A DNA stretch of 64,000 nucleotides, from NCBI RefSeq assembly GCF_050624435.1, contig NC_134535.1, positions 73,838,494 to 73,902,493 on the forward strand, written 5' to 3'. Positions within the stretch are counted from its first letter, which is position 1, and each line of letters opens with the position of its first letter. The notes beneath the pieces were generated by a model. That model was not told the origin of the DNA and ran no database searches. It worked only from the letters and a program-made list of their open reading frames with translations. Shown here in pieces: positions 4,479 through 11,689 of the stretch. Source of the DNA: Tenrec ecaudatus (lineage: Eukaryota > Chordata > Mammalia > Afrosoricida > Tenrecidae). The position numbers and the translations under genes are program-made.

Positions 4479-4650
4479 CAGAGTTGACCAAGAGGCTTTT
4501 AGAAGGAAGTGTCCTTTTTATCTCACATTTCCTCCCGCACCTCCATCTCTGCTTATCCCTTACTCCAAGGGATAAAGTTAACCCTGCTCGGTCTCTCTAA
4601 AAAAGATAGGCTGGATGAACAATCTGGAGGAGAAAACAACGGGACTGACA
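4479..4650. repeat. 172-bp local duplicate of 6890-7061
   Basis: This block aligns without gaps to 6890-7061 with 7 mismatches by my count (about 96% identity). Its right-hand 61 bp is the 5' start of the family A insertion at 7001, while its left part is the non-repeat flank of that insertion. It therefore copies an insertion junction. It lies in OS9 intron 5, whereas the other copy lies in intron 2. Confidence 0.85.
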
Positions 4651-4784
4651 AGTGCTTCAGGAGCCAGCTCACACCACCTCTCTGGAGCTTGACGTGAACA
4701 TTTTCAGAAGTTGTGCTAGCCGGTTGACGTCACACTTATCACTTGAAACTGGCCATGGGGGGTGGGGGTATTTCTGCCAGGAAA

Positions 4785-5809: not shown

Positions 5810-8800
5810 CCGAACCTCAGCCTCCCGGGGCCTGCCGTTGAGGTCACACCTGGAGCCGTTCCCATAGGTCTGGCTGTGGTAGCGCTTCAGGCGGTGTTGC
5901 TTAGAGGCCTGTGAGGGCAGCACAGGAGAAAGGGAGATGAGAGCAAGGAGGAAGGATGGCACGGAGTCCCCACCGGGGCCTTAAGAGACTTTGGGAATCC
6001 AAGCTCAGCGTCCTTTGCCTTCACCCAGAAACCATGCCAGCCAATTATAACCCTAACCCAGGACAGTTAGGCTGCACCCAAGACCCCTCCCCTCCCACCC
6101 CCCACAGCTACAACCTTGGCTGTTTCATCATCCCAGTCGAAGGCCGATTGGTAGTAACCAAGGTAGAGGACTTCACCTTTGATCTCGGAATCTGCAAGAG
6201 GAAGCACAAGTTGAGCACCATTCCTTTCTCCTGAGAGAACCGGGAGGGAAGTAGGCCGGGGAGTCAGGTCACTTCCCATGCCTGACCTTAGCTGAGGGCT
6301 TAGGGAGAATTAGGGGGGAGTCACCTTCCATGTGGTACTGCTGGATGTGGCGCCCATAGCAGAATTCATATGTCCACCAGTCCTTGGTCTTGCCATTGAA
6401 ACAAAACAAAGAAAGGGCAATGAGGGATGGAAAAGGGATGTGTCTCCCAGGGACCAGCATCTCTCCTGAGACACACCTCTCATCTCTTTCCCATGGCCGC
6501 TCGGTTCTCCTGGCTCAATCCAGAGAGAGTATTGTTTCCTTCTATAACTTGGGGTGACACCTCTGTGATCTTTCTGCTCCTCCTTGAAGCACTCAGACCA
6601 GGAAAACACGGGAGACCCCAACCTCGCACAGTAAAGTAGGCATCTACAACATTCCGAGTACTGATCAAGACATGGGGGGGTAACTACAGCTGTGACCAAG
6701 ATGAATTCCCTGGAATTCATGAAACGCACGTATATTCTAGTGCAGGTGATCAGACCAAAAATAAAGAGCAAAACGGGCGATCCAGGTAACAGGATGATTT
6801 CAGAAACAAAAGGGTGGAGGGAAAGTGCTAGGATGAAAATAAAATAGATTCATGGGACAGCAAGTGCCAGGGGCAGGCAGTGATTTTGCCAGAGTTCACC
6901 CAGAGGCTTTTAGAAGGAAGTGTCCTTTCTATCGCACATTTCCTCCCGCACCTCCGTCTCTGCTTATCCCTTACTCCGAGGGATAAAGTTAACCCTGCTC
7001 GGTCTGTCTAAAAAAGATAGGCTGGATGAACAATCTGGAGGAGAAAACAACGGGACTGACAGTTCCAGGGGGACATGGACAGGGGGAGGCGGGGGAAATG
7101 AAGTGGTGTTAACAAACCCAGGGACAAGGGAACAACAAGTGATCCAAATTGGTAGTGAGGAGGGTGTGGGAGTCCTGGTAGAGCATGATCAAGGGTAATG
7201 TAACCAAGAGGAATTGCTGAAACCCTGGTGGGGACTGAGCATAATAGTGGGACAGGAGGAAGGTCAAGGGAAATAGAGGAAAGAACTGGGACGCAAAGGG
7301 CATTTATAGAGGTCTAGATAAAGACATGTACATATGCAAATATAATTATGTATGAGGATGGGGAAATTGATTTATGTGCATATATTTATAGGTTTAGTAT
7401 TAAGGTGGCATTGGGCCTCCACTTAAGTACTCCCTCAATGCAAGAATACTTTCTTCTATTAAATTGGCCTTCTATGATGCTCACCTTCCCAACACAATGG
7501 CTGAAGACAAAGCGGGTGAATAAGCAAATGTGGTGAAGAAAGCTGATGGTGGCCAGCTATCAAAAGATATAGCGTCTGGGGTCTTAAAGACTTGAAGGTA
7601 AACAAGCGGCCATCTAGCTCAGAAACAACAAAGCCCACATGGAAAAAGCACCCCAGCCTGTGTGATCATGAGGTGCTGAAGGGATCAATTATTAGGCATC
7701 AAAGAAAGAAAAATCATATCATTGTGTGCTCACCTCCACAATACAATCGCTGAAGACAAATGGGTGCATAAGCAAATGTGGCAAAGAAAACAGATGATGC
7801 CCGGCTATCAAAAGATATAGTGTCTGGAGTCTTAAAGGCTTGAAGATAAATAAGCGGCCATCTAGCTCAGAAGCAACAAAGCCCTCATGGAAGAAGCACA
7901 CCAGCCTGTGCGATCACGAGGTGTGGAAGGGATCAGGTATCAGGCATCATCAGAACAAAAAATTTTACCATAGTGAATGAGGAGGGGTGGGTGCAGAGTG
8001 AAGACCCAAAGCCCATTTGTTGGCCACTGGACATCCCCTTACAGAAGGGTCTCGGGGAGGAGATGAGCCAGTCAGGGTGTGATGTAGCAATGATGAAACA
8101 TACAACTTTCCTCTAGTTCCTAAATGCTTCCCCCCCCCCACTATCATGATCCAAATTCTCCCTTGCAAGTCTGGCTAGACCAGAGTATGTACACTGGTAC
8201 AGACAGGAACTGGAAACACAGGTTTCCAGGATAGATGATCCCTTCAGGACCAGTGGTGTGAGTGCGATACTAGGAGGGTAGAGGTAGGGTGGGTTGGAAA
8301 GAGGGAACCGATTACAAGGATCTATATGTGACCTCCTTCCTTGGGGACGGACAACAGAAAAGTGGGTAAAGGGAGACACTGGACAGGGCAAGATATGACA
8401 AAATAATAATTTATAAATTATCTAGGGTTCATGAGGGAAGGTGTATGGGGAGGGAGGGGAAAAAATAAGGAGCTGATACCAGGGGCTTAAGTGGAGAGCA
8501 AATGTTTTGAGAATTATGAGGGTAATGAATGTACAGATGTGCTATACACAATTGCTGTATGTATGGATTGTGATAAGACTTGTATGATCCTCTAATAAAA
8601 CAATTGAAATTATATATTTTAAAGTTAACCCTGCTCTACACAGGGCAGAGTCACATGGGCGGCTGCTGGATTCTCTGCACCTTTCCTGTCTGTCTCACAC
8701 TGCGGCTCCTCCGTGGCCTGCTTCACTCCTACAGGTCCTCTAGATCCTGCTTGTTCACCAGCACTCTGGGTCTCAGGGGCTCCGCTACTTTGCAAGTCCT

Positions 8801-9595
8801 GTCTCCTCCATTCCAGCCCCGTTTACCTTTAGCAGGCAAGGGGCATTTTTCATCGGGCTCAACAACTCAGGGATCCCAGGCCCTTGGTAAGCAGGTGTCT
8901 CCTCCTCCCTTTCACGCTGGAAGTGAATGGCTCCGGCTGGCAGGCGACACTCATAGCGCTGTTTGTACTTGGAGGAGACAATCACCACGTCGGAAGCCTG
9001 GCTCTGGGGGAGAAAAAGGGGGGGCGTCGGGGAGCAGGGAGGCAAGAAGAGGCTGGGATCAGGGAGAACAACGAGATCCCTCTTCAGACCCTGGGGAAGA
9101 GCACAGCTGGGGACGGCAGCACCCACAAGGGCCCCAGCTGTGTCCGCCGGGTGCGGGGTGGGGGCAGAACACGCCCACTTCTCCACGGGGCGGAGTCTCG
9201 GTATTGAACAGGAACTGGGGCTGGGAAGCGGACGGCGGGAAGCGCCATCCTCCCAGCCCCCGGCCCCAAGAGACTGGGGCTCGGACTGTGATTGCGAAGT
9301 CACCGTCAACCCCCGATCTGGTCTTCTCGATCCCCCTGAGGCTTTTACCCCCGGCCCTGCAGCTGCCTGCTTCTCTACCTTTTCCCCTTTCGCCTTCGGT
9401 CCCGGACCCTCACCCTTCCCTCCGCCGCCTCACCTGCCCTCCCAGGACCGGCAAAGGCAGGATCTCGATCCCGTAACGCATCTCACTCAGTTCCTCCAGG
9501 TTCAAGCTCCCCACAGCGTCGGTGACATGTGCAGGTAACAGGAGCCCCAGAAGCAGCAGCCGGACTAGACTGGACAGCAGCGTTTCGGCCGCCAT
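5810..9595 (-). CDS. OS9: OS9 ER lectin, exons 1-5 (5' part of gene)
   Basis: OS9 binds trimmed mannose glycans on misfolded glycoproteins in the ER lumen and hands them to the SEL1L-HRD1 ubiquitin ligase for ERAD. Five coding exons are visible with consensus splice sites and matching phases: 9434-9595, 8827-9003, 6325-6388, 6115-6191 and 5810-5908, encoding residues 1-193. The start (MAAETLLSSL) is followed by a hydrophobic signal peptide to about residue 25. Exon 3 opens the MRH lectin domain and carries the tryptophan pair at 117-118 and Q130. Exon 5 carries R188 and an N-G-S sequon at N177. These are the known mannose-contact residues in human numbering. The remaining contacts (E212, Y218) and the acidic C-terminal half lie in exons beyond the left edge; no exon 6 was found in 1-5809. 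Nothing visible suggests the gene is damaged. Family A and AfroSINE insertions sit only in introns. Confidence 0.96.
6389..6889. other. OS9 intron 2, 3' part, no further feature
   Basis: Intronic sequence between exon 3 and the duplicated block at 6890. A 153-codon open frame on the minus strand here overlaps exon 3 and its intron and is not a separate gene. Confidence 0.5.
6890..7061. repeat. 172-bp local duplicate of 4479-4650 (ancestral site)
   Basis: This is the parental copy of the local duplication: it contains intron sequence, the left target-site duplication (6984-7000) and the first 61 bp of the family A element that starts at 7001. Confidence 0.85.
7001..8619 (+). mobile_element. 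Family A copy, 1,619 bp, with 17-bp target-site duplication
   Basis: The left repeat taaagttaaccctgctc at 6984-7000 recurs exactly at 8620-8636, bracketing a 5'-truncated family A copy in poly(A) orientation. It carries two copies of the ~235-bp internal unit (about 7455-7700 and 7710-7940) and ends in an AATAAA-containing tail. It sits in OS9 intron 2, antisense to the gene. Confidence 0.9.
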
Positions 9596-10460
9596 CTTTC
9601 GCTCCCCGGCTTACCTAGAGCAACTCTTTCCGCCTTAAACCTGGCAGCGGCTTCACCTCGCTCATTAGCGATGCAGCTGCTCATTGGCTGAACGTCCTGT
9701 CCCTCTTACGTACCTTATTCTCATTTGTAAACGTGGCTCTAAAACCCACGGGGGGGCGGAACGCGCGTGACCGGGAGCCAATGGCTCGCTGCACGTGATT
9801 GGCCCGCCGGCCGGGGAGGTCTCGGCCAGGGTTGGACCCGCCCCCCCCGGCCCGCGGGGCGGGGCGGTCCCCGGAGGCCGCGTTCAGCGGCTCCCTGGGC
9901 TCGTCCCCAGCTGGCAACTTTCACTGCTGACTTCTGGGCGCCGGCGTCCTATTCCACCGCACCGAGGATTTCAGCTCAAGGGGGGGTCGGCGCGACGTAC
10001 CTTCAGTTGCTCAATACCTGCTGCAGGACAATTACTGTAGAGAAATGGTTGTTACCTGCCGTCCAACCCGTACGGACTCTGGCGACCTATGTACGCGCAA
10101 CGGAACAAAACGGTGTCTAGTCCTGCGGCATCTTCGTGAAAATCAACGTTTGCGTTCATGGTTGTGTCTATTCATGAGCGTAGTGCTTCCCAATCGAGGG
10201 GCTCATCTTCCAACCCATACAATATAAGCATATAGTATACAGCTATACGCATATCCAAGTTCTCTCGGCTCTTCCCCCGCACACCGACAGCTTAGTCAGA
10301 GGATGGAGTCATCCCGCAATACAGTCATCACCACGGCCCATTGTTGAGCGATGGCTTTTGCGTCGATGCGTAACAGGGGGTGCGTGTGAAGTCACCGCGC
10401 GGGCCAGGCGGGCGGGCGGGCGGCGGGTGGGGCAGGGCGGTTTGAACAAGACGAAGACCA
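9100..10460. promoter_or_regulatory. CpG-rich OS9 promoter region, shared with MAPRE1 retrocopy
   Basis: CG dinucleotides are dense from OS9 exon 1 to the 5' leader of the retrocopy. Upstream of the OS9 start codon there are reverse CCAAT boxes (ATTGG) at 9683-9687 and 9798-9802, a forward CCAAT at 9778-9782 and an E-box CACGTG at 9792-9797. The last three are packed within 25 bp. The CCAAT and CACGT cores lie nine bases apart, which resembles but does not match the ER-stress element (CCAAT-N9-CCACG). A bidirectional role is inferred from the head-to-head arrangement; transcription start sites were not determined. 10100-10380 is less GC-rich with an isolated TATAAG near 10222. Confidence 0.65.
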
Positions 10461-10509
10461 AACCGGAGCCGGGTACGGGCACTGGACGAGGTTCAGTTGA
10501 GAGCCGAAG

Positions 10510-11316
10510 ATGGCAGTGAACGTCTACCTGACGTCAGTCACCAGCGATAACCTGAGTCGACATGACATGCTGGCTTGGATCAATGAGTCCCTGCCGTCGA
10601 ATCTGACAAAGATCGAACAGTTGTGTTCAGGGGCTGCTTATTGCCAATTTATGGACATGCTGTTCCCGGGCTCCATTGCCTTGAAGAAAGTGAAATTCCA
10701 AGCCAAGCTGGAACACGAATACATTCAGAACTTCAAAATACTACAGGCAGGTTTTAAGAGGATGGGTGTTGACAAAATCATTCCCGTGGACAAATTAGTA
10801 AAAGGGAAGTTTCAGGACAATTTCGAATTTGTTCAGTGGTTCAAGAAGTTTTTTGATGCCAACTACAATGGCAAAGACTGTGACTCTGTAGCTGCCGGAC
10901 AAGGTCAGGAAACGGCGGGGGGCCCTTCGCTTGTTGCTCCGGCTCGGAATAAACCGAAGAAACCTCTGGGCACCAGTAGTGCAGCCCCACAGAGGCCCCC
11001 TGCAACCCCGAGAACCGCTGCACCTGCTAAAGCCGGCCCGGGCGTGGCGAGGAAGGACCCGGGGGTGGGCAACCGGGATGACGAAGCAGCCGAATTGATG
11101 CAGCAGGTCAACGTGCTGAGGGTTACCTTCGAAGATCTGGCCAAGGAGAGAAATTTCTGCTTTGGGAAGCTGAGGAACATCGAGCTGATCTGCCAGGAGA
11201 ACGAGGGGATCAACGACCCCGTGCTGCAGAGGATTGTGGACGTTCTCTATGCCACACAAGAAGGCTTTGTGATACCAGATGAAGGGGGTGCGCAGGAGGA
11301 GCAAGAAGAGTATTAA
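10510..11316 (+). CDS. Intact MAPRE1 (EB1) retrocopy, 268 codons
   Basis: EB1 tracks growing microtubule plus ends and recruits SxIP-motif partners. This single uninterrupted frame matches full-length human EB1 (also 268 residues) with no introns, so it is a processed copy. Homology also extends into a GC-rich leader (from about 10390) and a 3' UTR that matches MAPRE1 after the stop. An AATAAA lies at 11632-11637, and no clear A tail remains. The calponin-homology microtubule-binding domain (about residues 14-116) is almost unchanged, with L7, P29 and S30 the only differences I count from human in residues 1-119. The linker and the C-terminal EB-homology domain have most of the changes, including C217 in place of the tyrosine that lines the SxIP-binding pocket. 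The terminal EEY is kept. The start lies about 0.9 kb from the OS9 start codon on the opposite strand. Whether it is expressed cannot be told from sequence. It could be a retrogene or a young pseudogene that has not yet been disabled. Confidence 0.9.
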
Positions 11317-11689
11317 CAGCCTGGACCAGCGGAGCACCATCCGAATTCTTCACTGTAAAATACTCCCTTTTATGATTCTTAGAGGACTCACTGGTTTCTT
11401 TTCATAAGCAAAAATTATCTCTTCTTAAGATGCACTTTGCAAAAGTCTCAACCCTTTTTCCATTCGTTTGAGTTAGGAGCTTTCTACCTTGTAGCAGAGC
11501 AACATTAACATCTAGTTGGCTCACCCAGAGAGCAAAGGGGTTCTCCCCAGGGCTCACTGTGCGCTTGCTGGAGACAGTGTCAGTAGAGAACTACAAAGTA
11601 AGCTAATGTGAGATCTTGGCAGAGAACAGTTAATAAATTAGTAATGCCTTAACAATTTCAGCATTTACTCCGTTGTGGTCATTATTAGT

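Follow-up and report, generated by a model that had tools for sequence, protein, structure and literature searches.

A full-length MAPRE1 retrocopy with an intact frame and a conserved CH domain lies head to head with OS9 in Tenrec ecaudatus

Structure of the locus

The 64,000-nucleotide stretch of Tenrec ecaudatus DNA analyzed here (the window) contains, at 10354 to 11652 on the plus strand, an intronless full-length cDNA copy of the same genome's MAPRE1, reaching from the start-site position to the proximal poly(A) site, with OS9 as its neighbor. The features, in window coordinates, are as follows:

9101 to 11380, no strand: CpG-rich domain covering the OS9 start, the interval between the two genes, and the retrocopy frame, made up of several runs and interrupted at about 10711 to 10810
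9446 to 9595, minus strand: OS9 exon 1, first 50 codons, head to head with the retrocopy (match to PDB 9og0)
10354 to 10509, plus strand: leader derived from MAPRE1 exon 1 plus 3 nt at the start of exon 2, with a 16-nt stretch absent from the parent
10510 to 11316, plus strand: EB1-like frame with CH domain, linker, EBH domain, and EEY tail (open reading frame, protein match, Pfam, parent alignment)
10510 to 10866, plus strand: residues 1 to 119 (CH domain), constrained, with 3 amino acid differences from the parent
11080 to 11313, plus strand: residues 191 to 268 (EBH domain and tail), with 10 amino acid differences, including Y217C (codon 11158 to 11160), and the EEY end kept
11317 to 11652, plus strand: 3' UTR to the proximal poly(A) site, with AATAAA at 11632 and gaps of 19 and 14 nt in the alignment to the parent

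The parent gene lies on contig C96 of the same 3.9-Gb genome as a leader exon and six coding exons, all of which are joined without introns in the copy, as in a processed retrocopy. The retrocopy frame (268 codons plus a stop) contains no internal stop and no indel relative to the parental coding sequence (CDS), from which it differs at 63 of 807 nucleotides (7.8%). Its protein aligns without gaps to human EB1 residues 1 to 268 (PDB 2r8u; E value, 1.6e-156) and exceeds the Pfam cutoffs for both the CH domain (PF00307; 51.1 bits, cutoff of 26) and the EBH domain (PF03271; 55.9 bits, cutoff of 27); among the matches listed genome-wide, it is the only one that spans EB1 residues 1 to 268 without a stop. 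The 5' end of the retrocopy coincides with the first position of the parent leader, roughly 28 nt past the parental TATA box and presumably the transcription start site, and its 3' UTR homology stops at 11652, 15 nt beyond AATAAA (11632 to 11637); these two ends make it a full-length cDNA copy that did not bring along the parent's promoter. The initial annotation of this DNA had described a full-length, open, intronless 268-codon MAPRE1 retrocopy with matching leader and 3' UTR, and comparison with the parent bears out this description throughout.

One of the UTR gaps may be a parental insertion, since another retrocopy (C41) has a gap beginning at the same place. No poly(A) tail was seen at the 3' end, and a short search for a target-site duplication, which allowed few mismatches and covered about 60 nt upstream and 90 nt downstream of the copy, gave no match; both are supporting hallmarks that old copies lose and are not required for assignment to the retrocopy class. 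The leader holds a 7-codon upstream frame (10366 to 10389) that the parent leader shares, and each of the eight upstream ATGs from 9700 to 10509 terminates before the main ATG.

The spliced parent protein is identical to human EB1 in its CH and EBH parts and differs at only a few linker positions, so the copy is the source of nearly all the amino acid differences that separate it from the parent; of the 27, residue 175 forms a partial exception, being at least partly a parental change. Synonymous divergence between copy and parent (Ks of about 0.2) suggests, at usual mammalian substitution rates, that the retrocopy is tens of millions of years old, and it would for this reason be expected in several related species.

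The neighboring OS9 exon 1, with its ATG at 9595 on the minus strand, was confirmed by a match to "Protein OS-9" (PDB 9og0), and its start codon is 758 nt from the retrocopy start, in agreement with the head-to-head arrangement first proposed. The single CpG-rich region proposed to be shared by the two genes held up in part: the interval is CpG rich, with an observed/expected ratio of 0.59 to 1.04 across 500-nt windows whose starts range from about 8900 to 11000, dropping to 0.27 at 11300, but formal CpG-island criteria identify runs at 9101 to 10220 and 10171 to 10710, followed by patches to about 11380, and no single unbroken island. A stop-to-stop frame of 299 codons (8577 to 9476, plus strand) lies antisense to the start of OS9 and is probably a by-product of high G+C content. 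On the OS9 side, pairs of similar conceptual translations found by eye (4503 to 4697 with 6914 to 7198 and 7547 to 7753 with 7798 to 7980) indicate dispersed repeats.

Integrity of the frame

For comparison, we listed 15 MAPRE1-like places outside the window, excluding the exons of the C96 parent and those of the likely MAPRE2/MAPRE3 genes (C119 and C130). Ten of the 15, some of them partial copies, were analyzed; the others were C65:6.3 Mb (too divergent, at 69% identity), C80:52.6 Mb, and three further places. Neutral simulations were run on five of the 10, and Ka/Ks estimates and cut-point scans on three. All 10 analyzed copies carry frameshifting coding indels (2 to 13 each), compared to none in the window copy; two of these broken copies are at merely 3.6% and 4.5% divergence, and C41, at 7.6%, has seven. 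Two less divergent retrocopies, C22:252.20 Mb and C71:46.16 Mb, are sisters with 98% support although each lies on its own contig, which points to a common variant source transcript or to secondary copying.

An open frame of this length could in principle be that of a neutral processed pseudogene that has stayed open by chance, with its base composition held CpG rich by the OS9 island. The absence of stops is weak evidence on this point, since the chance of having none is not significantly small (P = 0.08 to 0.27, depending on the substitution spectrum). The indels speak against a chance-open pseudogene: the ratio of indels to unique coding substitutions is 0:50 in the window copy versus 12:88 in three comparable dead copies (Fisher P = 0.009), the Poisson probability of zero indels at the rate of those three copies is 0.001, and the retrocopy CDS (0:50) also contrasts with its own UTRs (3:25, including the gap that is possibly parental; P = 0.043). 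By the indel test, the frame has thus been kept open beyond neutral expectation, with P values that are optimistic because the copy was picked for study as an intact one, a choice that itself favors the chance reading.

Pattern of substitutions along the frame

Counting only substitutions unique to the window copy (50 in the CDS), we obtained replacement-to-silent ratios of 3.5:9.5 for residues 1 to 119, 15:5 for residues 120 to 190, and 13:4 for residues 191 to 268. In a neutral simulation that used the copy's own spectrum, the CH replacement fraction (0.27 observed versus 0.75 expected) was reached in 0 of 5,000 simulations, and a second run reached it in 0 of 3,000; under four spectra, the CH replacement count was reached in 0, 0, 1, and 0 of 5,000 simulations. 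Applied to five dead copies, the same simulation gave CH replacement fractions of 0.67 to 0.79 and no deficit in any of them (P = 0.12 to 0.79), and this difference from the window copy is a second argument against an origin of the open frame by chance. Whole-frame counts are unreliable, because a replacement deficit appears in the dead copy C65 (P = 0.015) as well as in the window copy (P = 0.047).

An unpolarized contrast between residues 1 to 119 and 120 to 268 gave a Fisher P of 0.011. Because the boundary at 119 had been chosen after the alignment was viewed, we tried every cut point in the range 20 to 248; the break fit best at residue 117, the last residue of the Pfam CH match (boundary-corrected P = 0.035), and the same scan on three dead copies gave corrected P values of 0.83, 0.35, and 0.91. 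Ka/Ks between retrocopy and parent tells a similar story, at 0.06 for residues 1 to 119, 0.58 for residues 120 to 190, and 0.36 for residues 191 to 268, compared to 0.31, 0.26, and 0.38 for residues 1 to 119 of three dead copies. Gene conversion by the parent was ruled out as the source of CH conservation, as silent divergence in residues 1 to 119 is undiminished (Ks of 0.21).

The whole-frame pairwise Ka/Ks was dropped as a test: it is 0.27 for the window copy and similar for three dead copies (0.23, 0.32, and 0.37), being uninformative because the parent lineage contributes silent changes. The initial annotation had proposed Ka/Ks over the CH and EBH domains as a check and had taken a whole-frame value near 1 to count against a retrogene. 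The value found is far from 1 yet lies within the range of the dead copies, and the domain-wise check divides, with a constrained CH domain on one side and a neutral-like linker and EBH domain on the other. The evidence for constraint is thus the domain contrast and not the overall ratio, and purifying selection at the protein level extends over about residues 1 to 119 only, at the boundary-corrected P of 0.035; the linker and EBH domain show a neutral-like rate of change. This modest P value and the dead-like overall ratio fit a pseudogene open by chance, and weighing them against the missing indels and the CH replacement deficit, we judge that explanation rather improbable.

The CH signal also bears on a noncoding role, in which the copy would act within the OS9 promoter region as promoter or antisense RNA and the frame would be incidental. 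The head-to-head position and CpG-rich setting are what such a role would call for, but the shortage in the CH domain affects replacement changes while silent ones are not short, which points to a protein, and we regard a purely noncoding role as highly improbable.

CpG retention and GC drift

The rate of CpG transitions per CpG base, relative to other changes, was 1.01 in the window copy, 5.13 in C41, 2.74 in C71, and 1.53 in C22a. The contrast with C41, a dead copy of similar divergence, is significant (Fisher P = 0.003), and the comparison with the younger dead copies C71 and C22a, at 5 to 6 events each, showed no clear difference. Five older copies gave ratios of 0.79 to 1.26 in four cases and 2.07 in the fifth, the values near 1 probably being due to saturation. 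New CpGs arose in 15 of 75 unique changes in the window copy (14 of them in the CDS), 8 of 44 in C22a, 7 of 39 in C71, and 3 of 81 in C41; the window copy thus resembles C22a and C71 in its yield and exceeds C41. GC-ward and AT-ward changes numbered 42 and 22 in the window copy versus 12 and 53 in C41 (P = 5e-8); against C22a and C71 together, P was 0.10. The pattern fits low germline methylation and GC-biased fixation beside a promoter island.

Features of the predicted protein

The retrocopy protein equals the parent at 241 of 268 residues, and its 27 differences fall unevenly, with 3 in residues 1 to 119, 14 in residues 120 to 190, and 10 in residues 191 to 268. Eight of the 10 EBH differences are, by eye, at positions common to EB1 and human EB3. 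The SxIP-pocket tyrosine Y217, a functional residue on which membership in the EB family does not depend, is a cysteine in the retrocopy. F218, K220, L221, R222, E225, and L246, which we likewise take to be SxIP-pocket residues, are retained together with the EEY end.

In human EB1, Y217F and Y217D were reported to abolish MCAK and APC binding and to lower tip tracking, and Y217D to break dimerization, while the mutants tested retained alpha-tubulin binding (PMC4180461); the accessible text of an SxIP study (eLife 2025; PMC12695022) gave no match for the residues looked up. As Y217F and Y217D lose MCAK and APC binding (PMC4180461), it is a fair prediction by analogy that Y217C causes loss of SxIP partner recruitment, and tip tracking may be weakened as well.

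These changes would also be expected if the retrocopy had once been in use and has since come under relaxed constraint, in which case the CH signature is the trace of earlier selection. Replacement-to-silent counts of 28:9 beyond residue 117 or 119, a neutral-like linker and EBH domain taken as decay begun, and changes such as Y217C at positions common to EB1 and EB3 agree with this; however, the C-terminal half is still without a stop or indel, and we consider ongoing relaxation unlikely, if still a credible account.

Discussion

We think it probable that the window contains a retrogene that functions now or did so until recently and whose CH domain is under constraint, a reading in which its transcription, translation, and present-day selection are inferred. 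The proposal of an expressed retrogene in the initial annotation is strengthened by the CH-domain constraint and weakened by the absence of constraint beyond about residue 119 and by the undiscriminating whole-frame Ka/Ks. Better CpG survival than in C41 also speaks for a retrogene; the eight upstream ATGs, the EBH differences at positions common to EB1 and EB3, and the lowered tip tracking of the human Y217 mutants (PMC4180461) speak against it. In the scenario that we favor, a mature MAPRE1 mRNA, running from the normal start site to the proximal poly(A) site, would have been reverse transcribed and its cDNA inserted in the orientation opposite to OS9, with 758 nt separating it from the OS9 start codon. 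Because no parental promoter was carried along, any transcription of the retrocopy would stem from the CpG-island region at OS9, which, if the promoter is shared, could be active in both directions. Selection may then have retained an EB1-like protein mainly for the CH domain, which binds the growing ends of microtubules, while the linker and EBH domain would have drifted approximately neutrally under a GC-ward substitution bias, with loss of Y217 from the SxIP pocket. The expected product would bind microtubules and recruit partners weakly or in an altered way, and it could compete with EB1 or dimerize with it. A stronger version, in which the locus is a split-function EB1 paralog at the OS9 promoter, selected for tip binding, deprived of SxIP recruitment, and acting as a natural EB1 competitor, is speculative and quite doubtful; a literature search on a dominant-negative EB1 CH domain gave no match.

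If expressed, the retrocopy would add an EB-family gene to one mammalian lineage, provide a natural experiment that parts tip binding from partner recruitment, and show how an old retrocopy persists beside a housekeeping CpG-island promoter. If it is not expressed, it would serve as a warning of how an open frame combined with a low overall Ka/Ks can mislead.

As a functional or recently functional retrogene, the locus would belong to an already known kind of element. Compared to parental MAPRE1 (EB1), the retrocopy has the same length of 268 amino acids, the same domains, and the same EEY end; it differs in being intronless and in its amino acid changes, 24 of which come after residue 119, including Y217C. 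Vazquez and Lynch (2021; PMC7952090) list MAPRE1 among the genes duplicated in Proboscidea, a statement repeated in a review (PMC9762133), and they mention early "PMSs," which we take as premature stops, in two of three elephant MAPRE1 copies and premature stops in extra manatee copies (PMC7952090). These elephant and manatee duplicates are likewise extra MAPRE1 copies, within Afrotheria, and the accessible text of that study names no OS9-linked intact copy; our literature search, in which most subscription papers fell outside coverage, also found no paper naming one. The genome analyzed here is by its own content probably not that of an elephant: the listing gave exons of three p53-family loci, a lower bound, and elephants, in which TP53 is duplicated (PMC7952090), have many copies of that gene. 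Finally, a review (PMC5408686) describes expressed retrogenes of mammals whose promoters are borrowed from nearby or CpG-rich sequence, and the tenrec retrocopy, whose own expression is putative, resembles the cases described there in its insertion beside a CpG-rich active region.
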